Source of the DNA: Pseudogemmatithrix spongiicola
GTDB taxonomy: Bacteria > Gemmatimonadota > Gemmatimonadetes > Gemmatimonadales > Gemmatimonadaceae
Assembly (NCBI RefSeq): GCF_030623445.1
Contig: NZ_CP130613.1
Coordinates: forward strand, 2,790,001-2,854,000
Direction: 5' to 3'
Length of the DNA stretch: 64,000 nt
The notes below the pieces were generated by a model. It had not been told where the DNA came from. It was given only the letters and a program-made list of their open reading frames with translations, and did not search any database. A program made the position numbers and the translations under genes. Of this stretch, positions 7,368 to 20,862 are shown in pieces. The number at the start of each line of letters is the position of its first letter. The stretch's first letter is position 1.

Positions 7368-8627
7368 ATGTCGCTCACGCTCCAGGTGCTGCTCGCCCTG
7401 CTCGCCGGCCTCGGACTCGGCCTGGGACTCTCCGGCTCCGACTCGGCCTCCGCCGCGACGGTGCTGTCCACGCTTGGGCCCATCGGTACGCTGTTCATCA
7501 ACGCGATCCGCATGACGGTCATCCCGCTGGTGACGGCGACGCTGATCGTCGGCGTGGGGTCGGCCCCGAGCCCGCAGGCGGTGGGCCGGCTCGGCGCGCG
7601 GTCGCTGGTGACCTTCGTGGTCGTGCTCGCCGCCGCGAGTGCGGTGGGCGTGGTGTTCGGCTCGTGGCTGCTCGGGGCCTTCTCCTTCGACGCCGCGACG
7701 GTCGAGGCGATGCGCGCCACCGCCTCGAGCGACGTCGCGGGCGGTGCCAGCGTGCCGACGCTTGGCGAGTGGATCGTCGGCTTGGTGCCGGTGAATCCCA
7801 TCAAGGCCGCAGCCGACGGCGCAATGCTGCCGTTGATCCTGTTCAGCGTCTGCTTCGCCGCCGCGCTGACCCGTGTGCGCGAGGAGCGCCGCGCGGCGGT
7901 GCTGCGGGTGTTCGAAGGAATCCAGGACGCGTCGCTGGTCCTCGTGCGCGCGATCCTCGCGCTGGCGCCGATCGGCGTGTTCGCGTTGGCCGTGCCGTTG
8001 GCCGCCAAGCTCGGGCTCGCGGCCGCCGGTGCGCTCGTGGTCTACATCAGCGTGGTGAGCAGCATCTGCCTCGGCTTCATGGCCTTCGTGCTTTACCCGG
8101 CGGCCGTGCTGCTCGGCAAGGTGCCGCTGCGGCGCTTCGCCGAGGCGGCACTCCCGGCACAGGGCATCGCCTTCAGCTCGCGCTCGTCGCTGGCCGCGCT
8201 GCCGGCGATGCTCGACAGCGTGCGTGACACGTTGAAGCTGCCGCCGACCATCGGCAGCTTCTTCATTCCCCTGGCGGCATCGATGTTCCGCGCCGGCGCC
8301 GGCATCGGCCAGACCGTCGGCGTGCTGTTCATCGCCAAGCTGTACGGCGTGGATCTCGGGACGGCGCAGCTCGCGACGATCGCCGTCACCAGCGTCATCA
8401 CGTCGTTCTCCGTGCCCGGCGTGCCGGGTGGCAGCATCCTCGTGATGATTCCCGTGCTCATGTCGGCGGGGATTCCCATCGAAGGCATCGGGATCCTGCT
8501 CGGCGTGGATACGATCCCCGACATGTTCCGCACGACGACGAACGTGACCGGCCACATGGCGGCGGCGACGGTGCTCGCGCGCGGCGAAGGCGGCGGCGAC
8601 CGCGCCGTCGGCGCCACCGCAGCCTGA
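7368..8627 (+). CDS. Dicarboxylate/amino acid:cation symporter (DAACS)
   Basis: A 419-residue membrane protein with the DAACS (GltP/DctA/SdcS) fold. There are many hydrophobic segments, an 'SSRSSLAALPAML' re-entrant serine-rich loop, and the substrate/sodium region 'GVPGGSILVMIPVL' and 'GVDTIPDMFRTTTNVTGHMAAA', close to the NMDGT-type and 'D..RT..NV.GD' motifs. It imports C4-dicarboxylates or acidic amino acids with Na+ or H+. The final motif has GH in place of GD, which could shift substrate choice. The start is the ATG at 7368, close behind a TATCTT element. The next gene begins 7 bp later on the same strand. Confidence 0.9.
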   Translation: MSLTLQVLLALLAGLGLGLGLSGSDSASAATVLSTLGPIGTLFINAIRMTVIPLVTATLIVGVGSAPSPQAVGRLGARSLVTFVVVLAAASAVGVVFGSWLLGAFSFDAATVEAMRATASSDVAGGASVPTLGEWIVGLVPVNPIKAAADGAMLPLILFSVCFAAALTRVREERRAAVLRVFEGIQDASLVLVRAILALAPIGVFALAVPLAAKLGLAAAGALVVYISVVSSICLGFMAFVLYPAAVLLGKVPLRRFAEAALPAQGIAFSSRSSLAALPAMLDSVRDTLKLPPTIGSFFIPLAASMFRAGAGIGQTVGVLFIAKLYGVDLGTAQLATIAVTSVITSFSVPGVPGGSILVMIPVLMSAGIPIEGIGILLGVDTIPDMFRTTTNVTGHMAAATVLARGEGGGDRAVGATAA

Positions 8628-8634
8628 CGGGACC

Positions 8635-9807
8635 GTGATCGCCGACCATTGGCTCGCGGCGACGCTGGGCGCGCTCTGGGTCACGCTCCTGGTGACCGTC
8701 GTGCTGCGCTTCCTCGACAGCAAACGACTCTCGGCGTACACCCCGGTCTCGCGCGGTGATGCGCCACCGCTCTCGGTGGTGATCCCGGCGCGGAACGAAT
8801 CGCGGAACATCGAGGCCTGCGTGCGCAGCGTGCTCACCAGCGACTATCCGCGCCTCGAGGTCATCGTCGTCGACGACCACTCCACCGACGGCACGGGTGA
8901 GATCGCGCGGCGCCTCGCCGCCGAGGATACGCGCCTGCGCGTAGTGGCGGCGCCCGACCTGCCCGCCGGATGGTTCGGCAAGCAATGGGCCTGCCACACC
9001 GGCGCGCGCGCCGCGTCGGGCACGCTGCTCTGCTTCACCGATGCCGACACGCGGCACGCCCCGCGGCTGCTCAGCTTGAGCGTCGGCGCGATGCGTCAGC
9101 GCGGCGCCGACCTGTTCACCGTGGCGGGCCATCAGCAGGCGCTGACGTTCTGGGAGAAGGTCATCCAGCCGTTCGTGTTCAGCATCCTGCTCTCGCGCTA
9201 CGGCGGGCTCGAGGCGATGAGCCGCTCCAGCAAGCCGCTGGACAAGATCGCCAACGGCCAGTTCATCCTGATGTCGCGCGGCGCATACGACGCCATCGGC
9301 GGCCACGACGCGGTGAAGGACCACGTGGCCGAGGACCTGCGGCTGGCGCAGTTGGCGACGGCGCGCGGACTGCAGGCCCACATGCTGCTCGCCCGCGACG
9401 AGCTGCAGACACGCATGTACACCTCGCTGGCCGAGATCCGACGCGGCTGGGGCAAGAACGTCTATGCAGCCGGGCGTGATACCATGCCGCTGAATGCCGT
9501 GACCGGACGGATCTTCCCGTGGATCTTCCCGTTGCCGGCGCTGATGCCGGTGCTGCCGCTGCTGTGCCTCACGCTCGGCCTCGCCGGCGTATGGGGCCCG
9601 GGCGCGCTGGTCTTCGGCGCGATCGCCGCGCCGGCCACGCTGCTCTTCTATGCGGGGGTGTACGGATTCTCGCGGTTGAATCCGCTGTGGGCGCTGTTGT
9701 ATCCACTGGCCGCCGTGACGTTCAGTTGGATCTGCGCCGAGGCGGCGTGGCGCGGCAGCAAGGTGGAGTGGAAGGGACGGGGCTATGTGTCGCGGAGGGC
9801 GACGTGA
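8635..9807 (+). CDS. Membrane-anchored family 2 glycosyltransferase
   Basis: A 390-residue protein with a GTG start. One N-terminal membrane helix is followed by a GT-A domain with 'VVIPARNESRNI', 'VVDDHSTDGT', the DxD 'FTDADTRH' and a later 'EDLRLAQ' acid pair. The C-terminal roughly 90 residues hold three or four hydrophobic segments. Size and layout are like HpnB- or CrtQ-type glycosyltransferases that work on polyisoprenoid or carotenoid lipids at the inner face of the membrane. The actual acceptor cannot be told. It ends in a 4-bp overlap with a HAD phosphatase gene, an operon link. Confidence 0.85.
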   Translation: MIADHWLAATLGALWVTLLVTVVLRFLDSKRLSAYTPVSRGDAPPLSVVIPARNESRNIEACVRSVLTSDYPRLEVIVVDDHSTDGTGEIARRLAAEDTRLRVVAAPDLPAGWFGKQWACHTGARAASGTLLCFTDADTRHAPRLLSLSVGAMRQRGADLFTVAGHQQALTFWEKVIQPFVFSILLSRYGGLEAMSRSSKPLDKIANGQFILMSRGAYDAIGGHDAVKDHVAEDLRLAQLATARGLQAHMLLARDELQTRMYTSLAEIRRGWGKNVYAAGRDTMPLNAVTGRIFPWIFPLPALMPVLPLLCLTLGLAGVWGPGALVFGAIAAPATLLFYAGVYGFSRLNPLWALLYPLAAVTFSWICAEAAWRGSKVEWKGRGYVSRRAT

Positions 9808-10463
9808 GCGAAAGGCGGGTGGCGGTGCTGTTCGACTTGGACGGCACGTTGGTGGATTCGATCGAGTTGCTCGTGGCGAGTATGGAGTACTCGTTCGAGG
9901 GGCGCGAGCGACGGCCGAGCGTGGCGGAGTGGCTGCCGCTGATCGGGACGCCGCTGGACGCGATGCTGGCGCGCTGGGCCGAAGGGCCGGCGGACGTGGA
10001 AGCGCTGCGGGCGCGCTACCGCGAGCATCAACTGGCCAAGCACGACGAGATGCTCAAGCTGTATCCCGGCATGGTGGAGACGGTGCGGGCGCTGCACGCG
10101 GCGGGCCATCCGCTAGCGGTGGTGACGAGCAAGCTCGAGGTCGGAGCGAGGCGCGCGCTCAAGTTCGCGCAGATCGAGGAGTGCTTCGCGGCGGTGGTGG
10201 GCATCGATCACACGGCCAAGCACAAGCCGGAACCCGAGCCCGTGTGGCATGCGCTGGAGCGTCTGCAGATGCCGCGCGAGCGGGCGATGTTCGTGGGCGA
10301 CAGTACGCACGACATGCATGCGGGGCGTGCCGCCGGCGTCTACACGGTGGCCGCGCTGTGGGGGCCGTACACCCGAGCCCAGCTCGAGCCCACGACCCCC
10401 GATGCGTTCATCGCGAGCTTCGACGAGCTGATGCCGCTCGTCACGCGCTTGGCTAGTCGATGA
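9804..10463 (+). CDS. HAD-superfamily phosphatase, phosphoglycolate phosphatase-like
   Basis: A 219-residue HAD subclass IA hydrolase starting at the GTG that overlaps the GT2 stop. All four motifs are visible: I 'FDLDGTLVDS', II 'VVTSKLE', III the Lys in 'HKPEPEP', IV 'FVGDSTHDMHAGRAAG'. A helical cap lies between motifs I and II. The closest general match is Gph or PpaX-type phosphatase (phosphoglycolate or pyrophosphate), but HAD specificity cannot be read from sequence this way. The 3' end overlaps the convergent lipoprotein gene by 11 bp. Confidence 0.88.
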   Translation: MSERRVAVLFDLDGTLVDSIELLVASMEYSFEGRERRPSVAEWLPLIGTPLDAMLARWAEGPADVEALRARYREHQLAKHDEMLKLYPGMVETVRALHAAGHPLAVVTSKLEVGARRALKFAQIEECFAAVVGIDHTAKHKPEPEPVWHALERLQMPRERAMFVGDSTHDMHAGRAAGVYTVAALWGPYTRAQLEPTTPDAFIASFDELMPLVTRLASR

Positions 10464-11016
10464 AGCGGATGGTGCGGTAGATCGCGAGCTGCAGCTCGAC
10501 GTTGGCCTTGCCGGACGCCTCGCCAGCCATCGAAAAGGTCGGCCGCGTGAAGGAGATGCCGGTGGCGACGCGGCCCGTCCCTTCCTCGTACCACATCGCA
10601 CCCATCTGCCCGCCGACCATCACGTTCTCGGTGATGCGACGGGCCATGGTGGTGCCGGCTGAGCTCGCACCCGCATTCGCGATGGACGACCCGGACATCT
10701 GGCCGGGTGGCATCCCGGAGACGACGACCTGCACGCGCTGCGTCGTGGAACCCCAGCTGAGGCGATTGCCGGTGGCGCGGGCCTGCGTCGCCGAGACCTG
10801 CCAGCCGCTGGGCACGCAGAACGTGATGTTGGTGATCTCGACGAGCTTCCAGTCGCCGGTGTTCGGCGGGACGGGAACGGGACAGGGCTCCCAGTCCTGG
10901 TCCGACGACTGCACGGCGGCGGTGCCGGCGGTGCTCGGCGTGGTGGCTGGCGGTGCGCCGCCGCCGCAGGCGGCGGCCGAGACGGAAACGACGAGTGCGA
11001 GGGCGAATCGCTTCAT
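10453..11016 (-). CDS. Hypothetical lipoprotein
   Basis: A 187-residue protein starting at an ATG at 11016. It has a signal peptide and lipobox (VSAAAC|GGG) and a Pro/Thr/Ala-rich linker to about residue 35. The mature domain begins around 'DWEPCPVPVPPNTG' and contains one further Cys ('ITFCVPSGW'), so a disulfide is possible. The pattern 'GDWKLVEITNITFCVPSGW' looks like a small beta-rich surface domain that I cannot place in a family. It is flanked by a convergent HAD gene and a divergent methyltransferase gene. Confidence 0.65.
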   Translation of the reverse strand: MKRFALALVVSVSAAACGGGAPPATTPSTAGTAAVQSSDQDWEPCPVPVPPNTGDWKLVEITNITFCVPSGWQVSATQARATGNRLSWGSTTQRVQVVVSGMPPGQMSGSSIANAGASSAGTTMARRITENVMVGGQMGAMWYEEGTGRVATGISFTRPTFSMAGEASGKANVELQLAIYRTIRFID

Positions 11017-11111
11017 TGGTATGGCCTCCGGGCCACCAGTATGCGATGCAGTCGTGAGGTCGGCAAGGATTTGATTCCGGTGACACGCGCGAGGCGGGCG
11101 AATCTCCGGAC

Positions 11112-14100
11112 GTGTTCTCAACCCGCGATGCTACCGCCGCGCTCAGCGCGCTTGCCGATCCGCGTGCGCTGGCCCAGCTGAGCCAGCTCCTGGGCTTCGG
11201 CGCTCCGATTCCGATTGACCGCCGGACCTTGGCACGCCTCTCGCTCGGTGAGGACGCGCCCCGGGCGTGGGTCGCGCCGCGAGAAGACGGCCTGCGGGCG
11301 TTGCTGGTTCGGGTTCGGCAGGGCGGCGACGCGGCAGCGCGCACGAGCGCCTACTGTCGGGCAATCACGCGCGAGGCACCCGAACGTTGCTGGCTGGTGC
11401 TCGCGTGCTTCGAAGCGACGTCCGAGATCGTCATCGCCGCCGCACCACCGGAGCCGCGCGAGGCAGTCCCGCTCTGCGTCATCGACCCGCACGCGCCGCG
11501 CGAGAGCGACGCCGAGACGTTGGCGGCCCTCGTGGGCAGTCGCGAGGGTCCAGACCTCCTCGTCCACCTGCGCTGGCGCGAGACGCTCGGCCGCGCCGCG
11601 CTCACCCGACGGTTCTATCTCGAACTCGAGCAGCAGGTCACGACGATGGCCCGTCACGCGCAGGGCAACGCCAATGCCGACGCGCGGCGGACCATCGCCC
11701 TGCTACACGCGTCGCGGCTGCTGTTCGTCGCGTTCCTTGAGGCGCGCGGTTGGCTCGACGGTGACCGCGAGTTCCTGCGGCGGCATTTCGCCGAACGCGC
11801 GCGCGGCGGCACCTCCGCGCATCGGCGCTTCCTCGACCCACTCTGGTTCGGCACGCTGAACACGCCGTGGCGCAATCGCGCGGCGGCGGCGCGGGCGTTC
11901 GGGCGCGTCCCGTTCCTCAATGGCGGACTGTTCACGCGCAGCGCGATCGAGCGGCGCCACGCCGACCTGCGTTTCACCGACGAGTCGCTCGATGCAGTCA
12001 TCGGTGGCTTGCTGTCGCGGTATCGACTCACCCCGCGGGAATCCCGCGACACGTGGAGCGAGGCCGCCGTCGACCCCGAGATGCTCGGGCGCGCCTTCGA
12101 GTCGCTCATGCAGGGCGCCCTGCGCCGCACCCGTGGCGCGTTCTACACACCACCGGCGCTGATCACGCAACTCACCCGCGAAGGCCTCGCGGCTGCATTC
12201 GAGGCGCGCGGGGTTCCGGCCGAGCAGCTCTGGAGCCTCTGGGACGGCGCGCGCCCCACGCGCAAGGCACAGCTGCGCCTGCAGCAAGCCCTCGCGGGAT
12301 TCACCGTCCTCGATCCCGCCTGCGGGTCGGGCGCGTTCCTGGTCTATGCACTCGAGGAGCTTGCGGGACTGCATCAGCGCTGCGCCGACGCGCTCCCCCT
12401 CGGTACCCGCCGACGCGACGTGCTCACGCGCAGCATCTTCGGCGTCGATATCGATCCGACCGCCGTCTGGCTCTGTCAGCTGCGACTCTGGCTGTCGGTG
12501 GTCGTCGAGGAACCGGAGGACGACCCGCTGCGCCTGCCACCGCTTCCGAACCTCGACCAGAACATCCGCGAGGGCGACGCGCTGGCGGGGAACGGATTCG
12601 ATGACGCGTTCCTTCCGGCGTCTCCGGGGCTCACGGCGCAGCGACTGCGTTACACCCGTGCCGTCGGCATCCGCAAGCGCACCCTGGGCCAGGCGCTGCA
12701 GCGTGCAGAGCGGGAGCGGGCCATCGCCGCCGAGGTGGCGCGCGGCGCACGGCTGCAGGGCATCCGCCGCGAGCTGCTGCTTGCCGCCCGCGCCCCCGAC
12801 CTGTTCCGCGCGCGGCGCGGCGTCGAGCGCGCCACGCAGCAGCGGCTCGACGAACTCCGCACGGCCATCCGGCGGTCGCGGCGGAACGTCGAGTCCCTGC
12901 GCGGCGGTGCGGCCTTGCCGTTCAGCTTCGTCACGTACTTTCCCGACGTCGCGGCCGCTGGCGGCTTCTCGCTGACGCTGGGGAATCCCCCGTGGGTACG
13001 CACGCACGGCATCGCGGCGGAGCAACGCGCCTCGCTGCGGGAGCGGTTCGCGGTGTTCCGGAGTGCGGCGTGGGACGCGGGTGCGGCGGACGCGGCAGCC
13101 GGCAAGGGATTCGCGTCACAAGTGGACCTCGCGGCGCTGTTCACTGAGCGGGCCGTTCGCCTGACGCAGCGGGAGGGGGCGATCGCCCTGCTGCTTCCCG
13201 CGAAGCTCTGGGGATCGCTCGCGGGTGGTGGACTCCGTGCGTTGCTACAGATGCAGGCCCCACCGTTGCTGCTCGAGGAGTGGCAGGATTCCTCCGCGGG
13301 CTTCGACGCCGTCGTGTATCCCTCCGCGTTCGTGGCGCGGCGGCAGTCGCCGAGCGATGTGCCGCCTCAGCTGCGAGTCGTCGCGCATCGGCGCGACTTG
13401 CCGCTGCCGTGGACCATGCATCGCGAACGCTTGGCGCTCGACGACACGCCGGGTGCGCCATGGCTGCTGCTGCCTCCGGACGTGCGGGACGCCTTCGACG
13501 CGCTCGGCGCGGCGGGCATCCCGTTGGCGCGCTCGCCACTCGCGCGCCCGCAGCTCGGCGTGAAGTGCGGCTGCAACGAAGCGTTCGTGCTCGATCGCGG
13601 TGACGGTTCGGTGAAGGACGTCGAACCGCATCTCGTCCGCCCGCTGCTGCGTGGCGAGCATCTCGCACCGTGGCGTCCCGCGGCGAGTGCGCGCGATGCG
13701 GCGATCCTGTGGACGCACGACGCGCGCGGCAAGCCGTTGAGCGATCTGCCGGCCGAGGCGCATCGGCGGCTCTCGCGCTGGCGGCGTCAGCTGGAGCAAC
13801 GCAGCGATGGGCGCGGCGGCCCGTGGTGGGCGCTGTTCCGGACCGACGCGGCACGCACGGACCGTGCGCGCGTGGTGTGGGGCGATATCGGGCGCAGTCC
13901 CCGCGCCCTCGTGCTGCCGCGCGGTGATATGACGGTGCCGCTCAACACCTGCTACGTGGTCCGCGCGCCGTCCGATGACGACGCACACACGCTGGCGGTG
14001 CTGCTCAACTCGTCCGTGGGCACCGCGTGGCTCTCGGCACTCGCAGAGCCCGCGCGCGGCGGATACCGACGGTTCCTCGGCTGGACCTGTGCGCGCCTTC

Positions 14101-14267
14101 CCATCCCCCGCGACTGGACGCGCGCCGTGCGCCTGCTCGCACCCCTCGGGCGCGAGGCGTCGGAGGGCATGGTGCCCGATGTGTGGACGATGACGGAGCG
14201 GGTACTCGAGGCCTATGCGGTGGAACACAGCGCCGTCGCGGCGCTGCTCTCGTGGCATCAACTCTGA
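11112..14267 (+). CDS. Eco57I/TaqI-type N6-adenine DNA methyltransferase
   Basis: A 1051-residue protein with a GTG start. The SAM-binding motif I is 'VLDPACGSGAFLV' (DPACGSG at residues 401-407) and the catalytic motif IV is NPPW at 625-628, so it is an N6-adenine methylase of gamma order. Upstream of motif I is 'RGAFYTPPAL', the usual lead-in of type IIG and type I methylases. Between motifs lies a long Arg-rich helical insert (about 515-600). The C-terminal roughly 230 residues ('LGVKCGCNEAFVLD', 'EPHLVRPLLRGEHLAPW', 'TCARLPIP') look like a TaqI-type target recognition domain. The first 190 residues show no PD-(D/E)xK motif that I can see. Its stop overlaps the helicase gene by 16 bp. Confidence 0.88.
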   Translation: MFSTRDATAALSALADPRALAQLSQLLGFGAPIPIDRRTLARLSLGEDAPRAWVAPREDGLRALLVRVRQGGDAAARTSAYCRAITREAPERCWLVLACFEATSEIVIAAAPPEPREAVPLCVIDPHAPRESDAETLAALVGSREGPDLLVHLRWRETLGRAALTRRFYLELEQQVTTMARHAQGNANADARRTIALLHASRLLFVAFLEARGWLDGDREFLRRHFAERARGGTSAHRRFLDPLWFGTLNTPWRNRAAAARAFGRVPFLNGGLFTRSAIERRHADLRFTDESLDAVIGGLLSRYRLTPRESRDTWSEAAVDPEMLGRAFESLMQGALRRTRGAFYTPPALITQLTREGLAAAFEARGVPAEQLWSLWDGARPTRKAQLRLQQALAGFTVLDPACGSGAFLVYALEELAGLHQRCADALPLGTRRRDVLTRSIFGVDIDPTAVWLCQLRLWLSVVVEEPEDDPLRLPPLPNLDQNIREGDALAGNGFDDAFLPASPGLTAQRLRYTRAVGIRKRTLGQALQRAERERAIAAEVARGARLQGIRRELLLAARAPDLFRARRGVERATQQRLDELRTAIRRSRRNVESLRGGAALPFSFVTYFPDVAAAGGFSLTLGNPPWVRTHGIAAEQRASLRERFAVFRSAAWDAGAADAAAGKGFASQVDLAALFTERAVRLTQREGAIALLLPAKLWGSLAGGGLRALLQMQAPPLLLEEWQDSSAGFDAVVYPSAFVARRQSPSDVPPQLRVVAHRRDLPLPWTMHRERLALDDTPGAPWLLLPPDVRDAFDALGAAGIPLARSPLARPQLGVKCGCNEAFVLDRGDGSVKDVEPHLVRPLLRGEHLAPWRPAASARDAAILWTHDARGKPLSDLPAEAHRRLSRWRRQLEQRSDGRGGPWWALFRTDAARTDRARVVWGDIGRSPRALVLPRGDMTVPLNTCYVVRAPSDDDAHTLAVLLNSSVGTAWLSALAEPARGGYRRFLGWTCARLPIPRDWTRAVRLLAPLGREASEGMVPDVWTMTERVLEAYAVEHSAVAALLSWHQL

Positions 14268-16435
14268 CGGCGCTTGACGCGGTGCGCGCGCGCATCGCCG
14301 CCGCGGTGCTCGCCACCCCCGCGGCACCCGCGCTCGGCCGCTTCACCTTGCGCCCTGCGCAGCAAGAGAGCGTGACGGCGATCCGCCATGCGTTGCGCGG
14401 GCACGCAGGGGCGCTCGTGGCAGACGCGGCCGGCAGCGGCAAGACCGTCCTCGCCCTCGCCGTTGCCGCAGGCTACGACGAGGTGCTGGTGCTTACGCCG
14501 GCCGCCGTGCGCGAGCAGTGGCGGCGCGCGGCCCGCGATGCGGGTGTTGCCGTTCGACTTGAAAGCCACGAGACCCTGAGTCGGAGTCGCCGCGTGCAAG
14601 CGGCGCCGCTGATCATCGTCGACGAAGCGCATCACTTCCGCAACCCGCGCAGCGTGCGCTACGCGGCGCTCGCGCGATTGGCTCGCGGCCGCCATCTCCT
14701 GCTGCTCTCGGCGACGCCCGTGGTCAATCGCCCCGCCGATCGCGATGCGCTGCTCTCGCTCTTCCTCGGCTCGCGACCGCGCACGCCGCAGCTCCTCGAG
14801 CGCGTGATCCTGCGTCGCGCCGGACGGCCCGAGGCGTCCGTCGCCGTGCGCGAGCTTCCTTCACTGCTCGGCGATGCCGATGTCCCGGGCCTCACTGAGC
14901 GTCTGGCCTGTCTCCCGCCGCCATTGCCGGTGGCCGATGGCAGCAGCGCTGTCGCGCTCGTGCGCATCACGTTGGCGATGGCGTGGAGCTCCAGCCTCGC
15001 AGCCCTGGATGCAGCGCTTCGGCGCCGGATCCAACGTGGCATGGCAATGGCCGATACGCTGCGCGAGGGGCGTTGGCCCACGCGCGACGCACTGCGTGAC
15101 TGGATCATCGGCGACGACGCGACGCAACTCGCGCTGCTCCTGGACCCTTCGGAGCTCCCCCGCACCCCGCCGCCCGAGGCCGCGGCGACGCTCGCGCGGC
15201 ACCTCGACGCGGTACACGCGATGCGTGCCTGCGTCGCGCCGATGCTCGAATCGGACGCTGCCGCGCGCGCGGACGCGATTCGCCGGCTGCTGGATTGCGA
15301 GGCCCCCCGTCGCGTGGTGCTGCTGGCACGGCATGCCGAAACAGTCCGGGCGCTCTACGCGCAGCTGCGGAATCTCCCCGGTGTCGTCGCCATCATCGGG
15401 ACACGCGTGCATGCTGCCGCCGGCCGCTGGACGCGCGACGAAGTGCTCCGCGCGCTTGGCCCGCGCCAGCCGCCATGGCGCCCCGACGACCCGCGCGGCA
15501 TCCGGCTCCTGCTCGCGACCGATATCCTCGCCGAGGGTGTCGAGCTCCAGGGCTGCGCGACGCTCATCCACGGCGACCCCGCGTGGACGCCAGCGCGGTT
15601 CGAACAGCGCGTCGGCCGCGTCGCGCGTGACGGTCAGCGCGACACCGTCCACGTGCTGCGGTTCGCCATGCCGGCGGGAGCCGCGGCGCTGCTCGACCTC
15701 ACCGAACGCCTGCGCCGCAAACGGGAGGCCCGACGGCGCTCATTGGCGCACACGACGGCAACGACCGCGCTGCGCGACGCCGTGGAGCGCTGGCATGCCG
15801 ACCCCGAGGACGTGGAATCCCCAGCAGGGCCAGTGGTCGCCGCAGCGGAAGGACAGCACGACGGGATGCTCATCGTGCTTAGCGCTGGATCAGCACAGCC
15901 AAGCCGTCTCCTCGCTGCCGTGCACCGCGAGGGCCGATGGCAGGTGAGTCCTCGCGCGGCAACCGCACACCGGCTCGTGGTCGGTTGCGGGCATCCGCTG
16001 CAGCTGCGGGGCCAGGATCTGCGCGTCGCGCGCCAAGTGGTGTCCGCGTGGCGGCGCCAAGTCGCCTCCCGGCAGGTGGTGCGTGACGTCGACACGCTCC
16101 CCACCCCGCTTCTGCGGCGGGTCGCGCAGCGGCTCGACCGGTGGATTCAGGCGGCACCGCTGGCACAACGCAGCGCCGCAGTCGCACGCGCTCGCCGACT
16201 TCAGGCCGGGCTGTCCTCGGCCAGGGGAGCGGGAGCCGAGGCCGATGTGCGCTCAGCATTGCGGCAAACGCGCGTCGACGAGTGCCTCGACCGACTCGAG
16301 CAGCTCATCGAGGAGCGCCCGGTTCTCGCACGCCCCGCCACCGAGCGCATCAGCGCCCTGCTGATTCTCCGCCGCCGATTGCCGGCCGCTCCCGCTCCGC
16401 CAGCACCTTCGATTGAAAGCGCTGCGACTCGCTGA
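14252..16435 (+). CDS. SF2 (SNF2-like) helicase/translocase paired with the methyltransferase
   Basis: About 727 residues if it starts at the GTG at 14252, inside the end of the methylase gene; a second GTG at 14282 is also possible. Helicase motifs are intact: Walker A 'AAGSGKT' (GSGKT 61-65), DEAH at 124-127, 'LSATP' at 152-156, 'LLLATDILAEGVELQG' (motif V) and 'QRVGRVARDGQ' (motif VI, about 452-462). The C-terminal 250 residues are Arg/Ala-rich and helical, with no nuclease motif I can recognise. The overlap makes cotranslation with the methylase very likely. Together they resemble the motor and modification halves of a restriction system. It is shorter than typical DISARM DrmD or type ISP motors. 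Confidence 0.85.
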   Translation: MASTLTALDAVRARIAAAVLATPAAPALGRFTLRPAQQESVTAIRHALRGHAGALVADAAGSGKTVLALAVAAGYDEVLVLTPAAVREQWRRAARDAGVAVRLESHETLSRSRRVQAAPLIIVDEAHHFRNPRSVRYAALARLARGRHLLLLSATPVVNRPADRDALLSLFLGSRPRTPQLLERVILRRAGRPEASVAVRELPSLLGDADVPGLTERLACLPPPLPVADGSSAVALVRITLAMAWSSSLAALDAALRRRIQRGMAMADTLREGRWPTRDALRDWIIGDDATQLALLLDPSELPRTPPPEAAATLARHLDAVHAMRACVAPMLESDAAARADAIRRLLDCEAPRRVVLLARHAETVRALYAQLRNLPGVVAIIGTRVHAAAGRWTRDEVLRALGPRQPPWRPDDPRGIRLLLATDILAEGVELQGCATLIHGDPAWTPARFEQRVGRVARDGQRDTVHVLRFAMPAGAAALLDLTERLRRKREARRRSLAHTTATTALRDAVERWHADPEDVESPAGPVVAAAEGQHDGMLIVLSAGSAQPSRLLAAVHREGRWQVSPRAATAHRLVVGCGHPLQLRGQDLRVARQVVSAWRRQVASRQVVRDVDTLPTPLLRRVAQRLDRWIQAAPLAQRSAAVARARRLQAGLSSARGAGAEADVRSALRQTRVDECLDRLEQLIEERPVLARPATERISALLILRRRLPAAPAPPAPSIESAATR

Positions 16436-16877: not shown

Positions 16878-17011
16878 CACTGCTCGGACTCCTTTGGGGT
16901 CTGCCCCCCGTACGGCTGGCGGCGGGGGGCGGTGTCACGGACAATATCCAGCAGCTTCAAACCTTTCGCACCCCCGCCCCATCCAATCCGGCGTACGATA
17001 CACGGCGCCGA

Positions 17012-17584
17012 ATGACCTTGCCCCTGACGCTTCCCACCGCCCCCAGCCAACCGTCCGGCCCCGCCGACGACGTCGCGCTCGCCGCCTCCGGCGACCGCCG
17101 CGCGTTCGAACGGATCTACCGGACGCATGTGGACCGAGTCTTCTCGATCTGCTGCCGGATGGTGGGCGACCGCGCCAAGGCCGAGGAGCTCACGCAGGAC
17201 GTGTTCGTACGCTGCTGGGAGAAGCTGGGGACGTTCCGCGGGCAATCCGCGTTTTCCACCTGGCTGCACCGGCTGGCCGTGAACGTGGTGCTCAACGACC
17301 GAGAGGCCGAAGGGCGCCGCCGCAGCAAGCACGACGACGGGATCGAGGACATGGATGCGATCAGCACGGCGGACGTCCGCCCGCTGCCCGTCCCCGGCCT
17401 CTCGCTGGACCTCGAGGCGGCCATCGCCGCGCTCCCGGCCGGCGCCCGGAAGGTCTTCGTGCTCCACGATGTCGAAGGCTATACCCACGAAGAGATCGGC
17501 ACGATGCTCGGCGTCACCGCCGGGGGATGCAAAGCCCAACTGCACCGCGCCCGCATGCTGCTCAGGAGGATGTTGACCCGATGA
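17012..17584 (+). CDS. ECF-type RNA polymerase sigma factor
   Basis: A 190-residue sigma-70 family protein of the ECF group. Region 2 is 'FERIYRTHVDRVFSICCRMV' with 'AEELTQDVFVRCWEKL' and 'AFSTWLHRLAVNVV' (2.3-2.4, -10 recognition). Region 4 is 'LPAGARKVFVLHDVEGYTHE' with 'EIGTMLGVTAGGCKAQLHRAR' (helix-turn-helix for -35). It directs polymerase to a small regulon. The stop overlaps the start of a zinc-finger anti-sigma gene by 4 bp, and three DUF4097 genes follow closely, so these are the likely regulon or at least the operon. Confidence 0.93.
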   Translation: MTLPLTLPTAPSQPSGPADDVALAASGDRRAFERIYRTHVDRVFSICCRMVGDRAKAEELTQDVFVRCWEKLGTFRGQSAFSTWLHRLAVNVVLNDREAEGRRRSKHDDGIEDMDAISTADVRPLPVPGLSLDLEAAIAALPAGARKVFVLHDVEGYTHEEIGTMLGVTAGGCKAQLHRARMLLRRMLTR

Positions 17585-18222
17585 CGCACTTTCGCGAACA
17601 CGACGTCGAGAACGAACGGCACCGCGCCGAGTGCGCGGAGTGCCAGACGCTCTGGACTGAACTCGAGGCCATCGGCGCCGAAGCGGCGCAGTTGCCGCTG
17701 CTCACGCCCTCGCGCGATCTCTGGAGCGGGATCGAGGCACGCATCACGACGGCCTCGGCGCCGCGGGCGCTGCCGTTTCATCGGAGGCAGGGCTTCCGCC
17801 TCGCCATCGCGGCCTCGCTGCTCGTGGCCGTGAGCTCGGGCGTCACCTGGCGCCTCGCCACCCGCGGCGCCGGGGAATCGCTGCCGGCGGCGACGCTCGC
17901 GGAATCGGCGGGCGCCGCCGAGGCGGTGGGCCCCGACGCCACGGAGATCCACCGTGCCGCGTTCTCGGCCAGCGTCACGCAGATGGACCGCGAGATCGCC
18001 ACGCTGCAGACCATCGTCAGCGAACGCCGCGGCGAGCTGGACCCCCAGACCATCGAAGTGCTCGAGCGCAATCTCGCCGTGATCGATGCGGCCATCACCG
18101 AAGCCCGGTCCGCGTTGGATGCGGACCCGGCCTCCAAGTTCCTGGCGCAGCAGTTCACGCGCGCCTACACCAGCAAGCTGACCCTACTGCGCGGGGCGGC
18201 CCAGCTGCCCGCCGGACTCTGA
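17581..18222 (+). CDS. Anti-sigma factor with HxxxCxxC motif
   Basis: A 213-residue protein. The N-terminus has 'HRAECAEC', the H-x3-C-x2-C core of zinc-binding anti-sigma domains, followed by two helices. A single membrane helix lies near residues 77-95 (FRLAIAASLLVAVSSGVTW), giving a cytoplasmic sigma-binding head and a periplasmic sensor. The periplasmic part is helical (SVTQMDREIATLQTIVSERR) and may sense an envelope signal or protein partner. It would hold the ECF factor encoded just upstream (4-bp overlap). The next gene starts 2 bp after its stop. Confidence 0.85.
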   Translation: MTHFREHDVENERHRAECAECQTLWTELEAIGAEAAQLPLLTPSRDLWSGIEARITTASAPRALPFHRRQGFRLAIAASLLVAVSSGVTWRLATRGAGESLPAATLAESAGAAEAVGPDATEIHRAAFSASVTQMDREIATLQTIVSERRGELDPQTIEVLERNLAVIDAAITEARSALDADPASKFLAQQFTRAYTSKLTLLRGAAQLPAGL

Positions 18223-18224
18223 CC

Positions 18225-19127
18225 ATGACCATCACCCTGCAATTCCGCGCCCTGCTGCTCGCCGGCGCCCTTCCCCTCGCGGCCGCCGCACAGGACAACG
18301 GCGCCCGCGTGGACACGACCCTTACCCTCTCGCGCGGCGGCCACGTCGAGCTCGGGAACGTCTCCGGCGAGATCCGCGTGACGGGCAGCGACCGGCGCGA
18401 CGTCCGCATCACGGCGACGATCGACCGCGGCCGCTTCGAGCTCTCCGCCTCGCCGATGCGCGTCGCGCTGCGTACGCGCTCGGTGAACAACCGGCAAAGC
18501 GCGGCCTACATCGAAGTCCAGGTCCCGGTCGGCACCCGCGTCAGCGCCACCACGGTGAGCGGCCTCGTGGAAGTGCGCGCCACGATGGCGGAGGTGGTCG
18601 CGAAGTCGGTGAGCGGCCGCGTGGACGTGCGCGGCGCACGGGAGCGGCTCGACGCCGAGACCGTGAGCGGCACGCTCGACCTGCGCGACGTGCAGGGCCG
18701 CATGAGCATCGAGGGCGTCAGCGCGGACATCGACCTCGACGAGGCGCAGGGCGACGTGACGGCCGAGACCGTGAGCGGGTCGATCCGCATCCGCCGCAGC
18801 CGCCTGAGCGGCCTGCGGGCCGAGGCCGTAAGCGGCACGATCAGCTACGAGGGAAACCTGGACGCGAACGGCTCGTACAGGATGAACACGCACTCCGGGA
18901 GCGTCACGATGACCCTGCCGGCGAACGTGGGGGCAACGCTGGAGCTGGAGACGTTCAGCGGGCGCATCAACAGCGATTTCCCGCTCACCCTGCAGCCGGG
19001 GCAGGCCACCGGACGCGGGCGGCGGATGGAGTTCACGCTCGGCAGCGGTGGCGCGCGCGTCACGGCCGGGGCATTCAGCGGCAACATCACCATCCGTCGC
19101 GGCGGCGCGGCGGGCGACCGGGAGTGA
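18225..19127 (+). CDS. DUF4097 beta-strand repeat protein 1 (secreted)
   Basis: A 300-residue protein with a Sec signal peptide cleaved about residue 22 (AAAAQ|DN). The rest is a ladder of short beta strands marked by the recurring turn '(T/S)VSG': 'TVSGLVEVRA', 'SVSGRVDVRG', 'TVSGTLDLRD', 'TVSGSIRIRR', 'AVSGTISYEG'. Spacing is about 17-20 residues, as in a right-handed beta-solenoid. It ends with 'RVTAGAFSGNITIRR'. The family (DUF4097, putative adhesin) is often found next to ECF sigma/anti-sigma pairs, as here. No enzymatic residues stand out. Confidence 0.85.
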   Translation: MTITLQFRALLLAGALPLAAAAQDNGARVDTTLTLSRGGHVELGNVSGEIRVTGSDRRDVRITATIDRGRFELSASPMRVALRTRSVNNRQSAAYIEVQVPVGTRVSATTVSGLVEVRATMAEVVAKSVSGRVDVRGARERLDAETVSGTLDLRDVQGRMSIEGVSADIDLDEAQGDVTAETVSGSIRIRRSRLSGLRAEAVSGTISYEGNLDANGSYRMNTHSGSVTMTLPANVGATLELETFSGRINSDFPLTLQPGQATGRGRRMEFTLGSGGARVTAGAFSGNITIRRGGAAGDRE

Positions 19128-19132
19128 GCAAG

Positions 19133-19915
19133 ATGCACACGATGACGCGTTGGACGGCGACGGCCGTGGTGCCGCTGGCGATGCTTGCGGCCCCGGCCGC
19201 GGCACAGGAGAGCACGACCTGGCGCTGGGACGGGACGCTCGCCGAAGGCCGGACGGTGAACCTGCACAATGTGAACGGCAGCGTGCGCTTCGAGAGCGGC
19301 AGCGGCGATCGCGTCGAGGTGGAGGCCGAGAAGCGCTGGCGCCGCGGCGATCCGGACGATGTGCGCATCGAGGCGCGGCAGCTCTCGAACGGCAACGTGG
19401 TGATCTGCGCGATGTGGCGGCGCAACGATAGCTGCAGCGAGGGCGGCATCAACGGCGGCGATCGCGAGTGGAACCGCAATAACGACGTCTCGGTGCACTT
19501 CGTGGTGCGAGTGCCGGCCTACGCCAACGTGGACGCGAACACCGTGAACGGCAGCGTCGAGGTGGCGGAGTTGCGCGGGCGCGTGGACGCGAACACGGTG
19601 AACGGCAACGTCGAGGCGGCATCGAGCGGCGGGCCCGTGCGCGCGCGCACGGTGAACGGGTCGATCCGCGCGCGTGGGCTGATCACCGACGACCTGGAGT
19701 ACAACACCGTGAACGGCAGCATCGAGATCGAACTGCCGGCCAACACGAACGCCGACGTGAGCCTGCGCACGACGAACGGGCGGGTGACCAGCGACTTCCC
19801 GATCACGTTCACGGGCGAGATCAACCCGCGGCGCATCGAGGCGAAGGTGGGCAACGGCGGACCGGAGCTGCGCGCCCGCACGGTGAACGGCGGCATCCGG
19901 TTGATCAAGCAGTGA
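19133..19915 (+). CDS. DUF4097 beta-strand repeat protein 2 (secreted)
   Basis: About 260 residues from the ATG at 19133, which has GGAG 8 bp upstream; a GTG at 19124 overlapping the previous stop is the alternative. It has a signal peptide ending 'AAPAAAQE'. The repeat turn is TVNG: 'TVNLHNVNGSVRFE', 'TVNGSVEVAELRG', 'TVNGNVEAASSGG', 'TVNGSIRARG', 'TVNGSIEIEL', 'TVNGGIRLIK', about 18-19 residues apart. Two Cys (about 90 and 97) could form a disulfide. It is a paralogue of the genes on both sides. It is a likely surface or periplasmic beta-solenoid of unknown partner. Confidence 0.85.
   Translation: MHTMTRWTATAVVPLAMLAAPAAAQESTTWRWDGTLAEGRTVNLHNVNGSVRFESGSGDRVEVEAEKRWRRGDPDDVRIEARQLSNGNVVICAMWRRNDSCSEGGINGGDREWNRNNDVSVHFVVRVPAYANVDANTVNGSVEVAELRGRVDANTVNGNVEAASSGGPVRARTVNGSIRARGLITDDLEYNTVNGSIEIELPANTNADVSLRTTNGRVTSDFPITFTGEINPRRIEAKVGNGGPELRARTVNGGIRLIKQ
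19540..19760 (+). repeat. In-frame ACCGTGAACGGC-type coding repeats
   Basis: Near-identical 10-15 bp blocks (variants of CACGGTGAACGGC) recur four times in this gene about every 54-57 bp, each encoding TVNG. They mark the beta-solenoid rungs and could allow slippage or recombination between rungs and between the neighbouring paralogues. Confidence 0.6.
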
Positions 19916-19954
19916 GCTAGCGGCCTCCGGGAAACCGGTTCATCGGCGGCGCCG

Positions 19955-19960
19955 TAGATT
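19955..19960 (+). promoter_or_regulatory. Candidate -10 element (TAGATT) before the third DUF4097 gene
   Basis: The hexamer TAGATT lies 29 bp before the ATG at 19990 in a 74-bp gap. It matches the element before tesB exactly. It suggests that the third DUF4097 gene has its own promoter. Confidence 0.3.
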
Positions 19961-19989
19961 GGGGAGTCTCTCCCCATCCGGAGCCGCCG

Positions 19990-20862
19990 ATGTCGTTTCG
20001 CCCGCTGGTCGTGGTTGTCGCGCTCTCGCTCGTTGGCTGCGACGCCGATGTCGAGGCCAATGCCGGTCCGCGGCAGTCGCGCGAGCAGGTGTTCTCGTAC
20101 AGCGCCCCGCTGCGGGCGGGCCAGACGCTGGCCCTGCGCAACATGTCGGGCCAGCTGAGCATCGAGCCGGCGAGCGACGATACGCTGCGGGTGGTGGCCG
20201 ACCTCGCCTGGCGCGGTGACTCCGCGCTGCCGCGCGATGTGTCGTTCCGCAGCGACACCATGCCGGGCGGGGTGTACGTCTGCGCGATCGTCGGCAAGGG
20301 ACAGTGCACCGCCGACGACTACGACGTGAACAGCGATGGCACCGGCATGTCGTTCCGGCGTGGCCGCGTTCGCCTGGGCATGGGCGGCGGTTCGCTAGCC
20401 ACGGTGCACTTCCGCGTGCAGGTACCGACCGGCGTGCGGCTGGAACTGGTGATGATCGACGGGTCCATCGTGTCGGCGTCTTCCGCCCCCGTGAAGGCGC
20501 GGGGCGTGAACGGCCAGATGACGATCGTGACGAGCGTCGGGCCGGTGAACGCGAAGACCGTGAACGGCAACATCGACGCGCGCATGACGACGCTCTCCGG
20601 CACCGATTCAGTCGTGGTGGAAACGGTGAACGGCGAGGTGGCGGCCTACCTGCCGATGAATGCCTCCGCGACGGTGGACGTACGTGCGACGAACGGCACG
20701 GTGCAAAGCGACTTCGCCGGCGTGACCGGCGGCTCGCAGGGCATCAACAAGGCGATCACCGGCGTGCTTGGTGCGGGCGCCACGCCCGTGCGTGTGCGAT
20801 CGATCAACGGCGGCGCGGCGCTGCGGCAACTCGATGCCCAGGGACGGCCGCTGACGCCGTAA
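19990..20862 (+). CDS. DUF4097 beta-strand repeat lipoprotein 3
   Basis: A 290-residue protein with a lipoprotein signal (LVVVVALSLVGC|D), so unlike its two neighbours it is probably lipid-anchored. The repeat turns are 'GVNGQMTIVT', 'TVNGNIDARM', 'TVNGEVAAYL', 'ATNGTVQSDF' and 'SINGGAALRQ'. A 60-residue segment before them contains 'VCAIVGKGQC' (two Cys) and 'DYDVNSDGTG', a possible calcium-binding loop. It is separated from the second paralogue by 74 bp with a possible promoter of its own. Confidence 0.83.
   Translation: MSFRPLVVVVALSLVGCDADVEANAGPRQSREQVFSYSAPLRAGQTLALRNMSGQLSIEPASDDTLRVVADLAWRGDSALPRDVSFRSDTMPGGVYVCAIVGKGQCTADDYDVNSDGTGMSFRRGRVRLGMGGGSLATVHFRVQVPTGVRLELVMIDGSIVSASSAPVKARGVNGQMTIVTSVGPVNAKTVNGNIDARMTTLSGTDSVVVETVNGEVAAYLPMNASATVDVRATNGTVQSDFAGVTGGSQGINKAITGVLGAGATPVRVRSINGGAALRQLDAQGRPLTP

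Follow-up and report, generated by a model that had tools for sequence, protein, structure and literature searches.

Restriction-modification-like (R-M-like) modules usually belong to the accessory genome, are mobile and change their specificity quickly, and the core orphan methylases Dam, CcrM and C. difficile CamA are lineage-wide, vertically inherited, nuclease-free and stand-alone, with a constant recognition domain. Among the systems closest to the locus studied here, type IIG/MmeI-like enzymes have a helical spacer, an Eco57I/MmeI methylase core and a TaqI_C-like target recognition domain (TRD), and DISARM class 1 contains an adenine methylase and an SNF2 helicase (DrmMI and DrmD, with DrmA, DrmB and DrmC). 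The DUF499-centred, BREX-related systems (Hma), which are defined by a DUF499 ATPase, combine an N6-methylase with a Swi2/Snf2 helicase, and in their type 2 this helicase has an HKD domain at its N-terminus (PMC12839542). We analysed a methylase-helicase gene pair in a 64,000-nucleotide stretch of Pseudogemmatithrix spongiicola (contig NZ_CP130613.1, positions 2,790,001 to 2,854,000 of the forward strand; hereafter the window, whose numbering is used for its features). Judged by its sequence, the pair is a derived, nuclease-free relative of the methylase + HKD-Snf2 modules found on mobile replicons, and it is phylogenetically like a core orphan methylase. The explanation that we favour, and consider slightly better than even, is that the nuclease of such a mobile restriction module was lost and that the remainder turned into a core N6-methyladenine (m6A) system of fixed specificity with an SNF2 translocase as partner. 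The evolutionary part of this explanation is strong; that the enzyme methylates DNA, at which motif, what the motor does and the role in the cell, which may be an epigenetic mark or cleavage-free phage exclusion, are inferred. The features of the two genes are listed below.

11112..14267, + strand, N6-adenine DNA methyltransferase (Eco57I/MmeI/TaqI-like), 1051 amino acids (aa), GTG start (open reading frame and family searches)
11112..11681, + strand, methylase N-terminal domain, residues 1-190, confidently predicted alpha/beta fold, probably non-catalytic, fastest-evolving part of the methylase (AlphaFold2 (AF2) model, alignment)
12312..12332, + strand, methylase motif I DPACGSG (S-adenosylmethionine binding), residues 401-407 (orthologue alignment)
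12984..12995, + strand, methylase motif IV NPPW (N6-adenine catalysis), residues 625-628 (orthologue alignment)
13332..14111, + strand, TRD, residues 741-1000, TaqI_C/BseCI-like, conserved across the order
14252..16435, + strand, SNF2-type SF2 helicase/translocase, 727 aa, GTG start, without the N-terminal HKD nuclease of mobile relatives
14432..14446, + strand, helicase Walker A GSGKT, residues 61-65 (alignment)
14621..14632, + strand, helicase motif II DEAH, residues 124-127 (alignment)
15605..15619, + strand, helicase motif VI QRVGR, residues 452-456 (alignment)
15767..16432, + strand, helicase C-terminal region, residues 506-727, folded (mostly with a predicted local distance difference test score, pLDDT, > 80), very fast-evolving, without conserved catalytic residues

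The initial annotation had described a two-gene module of an N6-methyltransferase and an SF2 helicase, overlapping by 16 bp, with no visible nuclease and with ordinary genes as neighbours. The coordinates of the open reading frames (ORFs) and the Pfam matches agree with this description, the Pfam, PADLOC and NCBIfam family searches recognised no nuclease domain in either protein, and ordinary genes recur beside the pair over many loci, namely a HAD phosphatase, a glycosyltransferase (GT), DUF4097-like genes and an ECF sigma factor. Our analysis refines it in two respects: the motor is of the SNF2 type, a double-stranded DNA translocase, and the pair is not confined to one genome. The methylase matched Eco57I methylase (2e-14) and also MmeI_Mtase and N6_Mtase in Pfam, and the helicase matched ResIII, SNF2-rel_dom and Helicase_C. 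Among named families, the methylase was closest to type IIG and DrmMI, and the motor to DrmD, DpdE and phospholipase-D anti-phage helicases, with NCBIfam scores far under the curated cut-offs for both. Motifs I and IV were conserved in all aligned methylase orthologues, with DPAVGSG-type variants of motif I in families f2, f3 and f9, and an alignment of 67 helicase sequences showed little or no variation in motifs I, II, III, V and VI (GxGKT, DEAH, TD...EG, QRxGR). Since these motifs are kept across dozens of orthologues, both ORFs are genes under selection and not chance ORFs. In the predicted structure of the helicase (pLDDT 89), the modelled SNF2 core at residues 20-505 matches INO80, CSB, ALC1 and ZorD, plus RapA by Foldseek.

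A search for the same pair in other genomes, proposed in the initial annotation, found it almost throughout the order Gemmatimonadales and in mobile relatives. The methylase was present in 180 of 201 genomes of the order, in 133 of the 147 genomes of good quality and in 67 of 69 genera; the helicase was present in 128 of the same 147. At loci whose contig reaches beyond the methylase C-terminus, the helicase lay directly behind the methylase without exception, in family f1 (51/51) as in families f2 and f3 (17/17). Elsewhere in the phylum, the pair was also found in f9, a family of the same class but of another order (38-42% identity), and in some of f4; most other families gave generic methylase matches only. 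Compared with an RpoB tree built from these genomes, neither the methylase tree nor the helicase tree showed a conflict at an ultrafast bootstrap (UFBoot) support of at least 95. By these patterns the pair belongs to the core genes of nearly the whole order and is inherited vertically, in contrast to R-M genes, whose distribution is usually patchy. Most genomes without the pair are small, and it can be missing cleanly: one genome (G136) retains the GT, HAD and DUF4097-like genes with nothing of the pair between them. Another, a complete genome of 7.5 Mb (G064, locus L132, about 7874-11089), has an intact methylase and cleanly lacks the helicase, with the ECF sigma gene about 0.2 kb behind. The methylase can therefore stand alone.

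The recognition domain was nearly as conserved as the catalytic core of the methylase. The ratio of TRD identity to core identity was 0.91 in f1, where core identity itself is only about 57%, 0.81 in f2 and 0.87 in f9, compared to a mean of 0.46 in cyanobacterial relatives, and many TRD positions were invariant in the alignment of f1, f2 and f9. In the cyanobacterial relatives the motif-I core was 79-93% identical, and the TRD dropped to 15-27% between genera of different orders. A constant TRD would follow from methylation of a single motif in all these bacteria, and is unexpected of a diversifying restriction system.

The same gene pair was found on plasmids and on virus-catalogued contigs of other phyla. 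With tblastn on plasmids the methylase was matched and, with the longer f9 helicase as query, so was the helicase on the same replicons. We inspected six plasmid regions (L167-L172; Nostoc, Planktothrix, Synechocystis pSYSX, Microcystis, Halobaculum and Deinococcus). Each contains a methylase and a helicase of 1080-1270 aa with other genes in between, and several lie amid defence genes. The mobile helicases start with an HKD (phospholipase-D) nuclease (FLHAKAYIF...GSSNFT) and match the PADLOC model C3a139 'HKD+Snf2'; the HKD motifs HxK...GSxN were intact in 12 of 12 mobile relatives, which comprise the six plasmid loci, Calothrix L066 and five IMG/VR contigs. No HKD domain was found in the helicases of families f1 to f3, which have 60-72 residues before Walker A compared to 259-296 in the mobile HKD relatives. 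The f9 helicase has an N-extension of 225-256 residues at the HKD position without HxK or GSxN, and 2 of 3 loci of f4 have a separate small ORF between methylase and helicase, with weak HKD similarity (E 2e-4) in one of them. When trees were rooted with the plasmid relatives, f9 was basal or nearly so within the Gemmatimonadota, a clade with support 78 in the methylase tree and 100 in the helicase tree. A simple reading of these comparisons is that the HKD nuclease was probably lost in the Gemmatimonadales lineage. The two states share a homologous methylase (N-domain, helical spacer, core and TRD) and a homologous SNF2 helicase close by, in the mobile modules often a few genes away. They differ in that the mobile modules have an intact HKD, cargo genes in between, locations in defence islands or on mobile replicons and TRDs swapped between genera, whereas the Gemmatimonadales pair has no HKD, overlapping genes, a fixed chromosomal locus and a constant TRD. 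The mobile module is widespread, and the variable cargo between the plasmid methylase and the HKD-SNF2 helicase (SLATT + nucleotidyltransferase, DUF262, VapC, sigma-70-like and others) apparently marks a slot for defence genes. No DUF499 ATPase was seen among the annotated genes of L167-L172.

A single-protein scan found no close viral homologue, and a profile scan gave distant relatives only (20-33% identity). Some of these distant relatives on viral contigs are the HKD-bearing module and one (L189) is another HKD-less pair. In L189 (3557-8057 of IMGVR_UViG_3300003315_000001), a 986-aa methylase (32% identical) accompanies a helicase that likewise has no HKD and begins directly with its RecA domain. 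This contig may be mis-sorted chromosomal DNA or may represent an independent loss of HKD.

The initial annotation had also suggested an unrecognised nuclease fold in methylase residues 1-190 or in the helicase C-terminus (about 480-727), and had proposed structure prediction as a check. For the methylase, the AF2 model of residues 1-200 is confident (pLDDT 93.5) and predicts an alpha/beta domain, and some features would fit an enzyme with its own type IIG-like N-terminal nuclease. Outside this domain the protein is matched by PADLOC type IIG models, and the structural matches of the domain (Z 3.7-4.8) include restriction-endonuclease folds such as BpuSI and SPARDA effectors, BpuSI residues 24-197 being aligned to methylase residues 15-200 at Z 4.1. 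However, this BpuSI match is weak and non-significant, as all structural matches were in the noise range (Z < 8). No conserved set of catalytic acidic and lysine residues was found in residues 1-190 over 70 orthologues, and this region is the least conserved of the protein, residues 1-120 having 34% identity within f1 and 20% between families. In addition, the mobile relatives, whose nuclease is the HKD domain, have the same methylase N-domain, likewise without a visible ExK motif. We therefore reject the N-terminus as a hidden nuclease, and a methylase that carries its own nuclease is in our view very improbable. The suggestion for the helicase fared no better, since residues 491-727 contain no invariant residue over the 67 sequences; this candidate was rejected on the lack of conserved residues, no fold search having been aimed at 506-727 alone (the SNF2 core filled the match list).

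Among described systems, the pair is homologous to DISARM class 1 (DrmMI 2.5e-24, DrmD 2.4e-22). However, the helicase scored 79 bits against the DrmD NCBIfam cut-off of 610, and the DrmB-type MZB domain (DUF1998, PF09369) is absent from this genome and was found in only 3 of 61 genomes of the order, with no such gene in the conserved neighbourhood of the orthologues. Membership of DISARM is rejected on these two grounds, as the initial annotation had anticipated. It had likewise set the pair apart from BREX, and the methylase score (48.5 bits against the PglX cut-off of 400) agrees; for PglZ and BrxC this covers only neighbours recognisable by homology, with no dedicated search. Membership of the DUF499/Hma systems is also rejected, since no DUF499 AAA+ ATPase (PF04465) was found in this genome (1 of 61 genomes of the order has one) and the Swi2/Snf2 helicase here has neither an HKD domain nor conserved catalytic residues at its C-terminus. 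The methylase shares the helical spacer, the Eco57I/MmeI-like core and the TRD of type IIG enzymes, and MmeI is its best solved relative (2e-8), but it has an obligate SNF2 partner and lacks PD-(D/E)XK catalytic residues, none being conserved in residues 1-190, so that it is not a type IIG enzyme. With the core orphan methylases the pair shares near-universality, vertical inheritance, the lack of a linked nuclease and a constant TRD; it differs from them by its co-translated SNF2 translocase.

A nuclease could in principle act in trans, so that the pair would be an ordinary R-M system whose SNF2 motor recruits, for example, a stand-alone HKD or PD-(D/E)XK enzyme. There are precedents, as DISARM has been proposed to recruit alternative PLD (phospholipase-D) nucleases when DrmC is missing (PMC9142583), and some type-2 BREX-related loci have auxiliary nucleases instead of the HKD fusion (PMC12839542). 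We nevertheless regard this as improbable. The neighbourhood comparison showed no third gene constantly linked to the pair (a genome-wide search for a nuclease in trans was not made), and a constant TRD together with vertical inheritance is unlike R-M systems.

The favoured explanation may be set out as follows. The ancestor would have been a mobile R-M-like module of an N6-adenine methylase and a helicase in which an SNF2 motor follows a fused HKD nuclease. After loss of the nuclease domain in Gemmatimonadales, the remaining methylase and SNF2 translocase would have settled as a vertically inherited core pair with a fixed recognition sequence. Most likely, the methylase would write m6A throughout the chromosome wherever one conserved motif occurs, and the co-translated motor, which is related to RapA, Rad54 and DrmD, would act with it, for example by clearing proteins or by looking for sites left unmethylated. 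On this view the effect of the pair would come from an epigenetic or genome-maintenance mark common to the order, and not from cutting DNA. More specifically, and tentatively, Gemmatimonadales may have an order-wide, Dam-like fixed m6A mark derived from a tamed restriction module, with the SNF2 translocase as an ATP-driven partner, that is, a bacterial methylase-remodeller pair. No described counterpart of such a pair writing or using a DNA mark was found in the literature searched. The initial annotation had left open a minimal restriction-like or an epigenetic system; the epigenetic alternative is the better of the two, and an active hidden nuclease is not supported.

Several observations weigh against this explanation. 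The literature searched contained no Gemmatimonadota methylome or motif. The methylase and helicase trees disagree on the position of f9, and the homology to HKD of the f9 extension, which from its position may be a dead HKD domain, was not significant by hidden Markov model (HMM) or hhalign. Among the cyanobacterial relatives, the TRDs of four Nostocales are 55-61% identical, so that TRD swapping there is seen between genera and not everywhere. The pair is dispensable, being absent from most of the smallest genomes, and the helicase is kept almost everywhere, which suggests that it is needed for something beyond methylation. Finally, the nonsynonymous substitution rate (dN) of the helicase was 0.34 (0.60 in its C-terminus) compared to 0.02-0.08 in neighbouring genes, in a comparison of five genes that uses dN only since synonymous rates (dS) were near saturation, and such rapid divergence is also expected of immune proteins.

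The last two observations favour a BREX-like exclusion of phage without cleavage, in which the methylase marks self and the SNF2 motor blocks replication or transcription of unmethylated incoming DNA, leaving it uncut. It is favoured as well by the defence islands on plasmids in which homologous modules sit, and by the relationship of the helicase to DrmD/DpdE/ZorD-type defence motors; this relationship and the fast divergence of the helicase C-terminus keep the proposal alive. On the other hand, a recognition domain that is constant over the order would allow easy phage escape, and inheritance is vertical at a fixed locus. The genome with a methylase and no helicase (G064) and the lack of a close viral homologue in the single-protein and profile scans do not fit well either. 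We consider cleavage-free exclusion unlikely, though clearly less so than a nuclease in trans.

The locus allows a single type of module to be compared in its mobile state, with a nuclease and swapped TRDs, and in its settled state across a bacterial order, without a nuclease and with a constant TRD. The passage from a restriction system to a housekeeping epigenetic system would become testable, and a single shared m6A motif is predicted in little-studied bacteria that are globally common in soil and freshwater. The retained SNF2 motor also poses the question of what use a translocase is to a methylase when nothing is cut.

The neighbourhood comparison identified two conserved flanks of the pair.

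9786..10463, + strand, HAD-type phosphatase (phosphoglycolate-phosphatase-like), conserved flank
16982..17584, + strand, ECF sigma factor, conserved downstream flank, followed by anti-sigma and DUF4097-like genes

Over many loci, the recurrent neighbours were the HAD phosphatase, the GT, the ECF sigma factor and DUF4097-like genes. The HAD phosphatase adjoins the pair in all four families examined (f1, f2, f3 and f9), upstream in close relatives and downstream in others. Its position beside a methylase may reflect a functional link or chance; in E. coli, gph sits in the dam operon. A small lipoprotein-like ORF (10453-11121, - strand) overlaps the methylase start by 10 bp with its own start on the opposite strand, and a homologue was seen in one close relative only. 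The downstream cassette (16982-20859) consists of the ECF sigma gene, the anti-sigma gene and three DUF4097-like adhesin-fold genes, and is present in many Gemmatimonadaceae loci.

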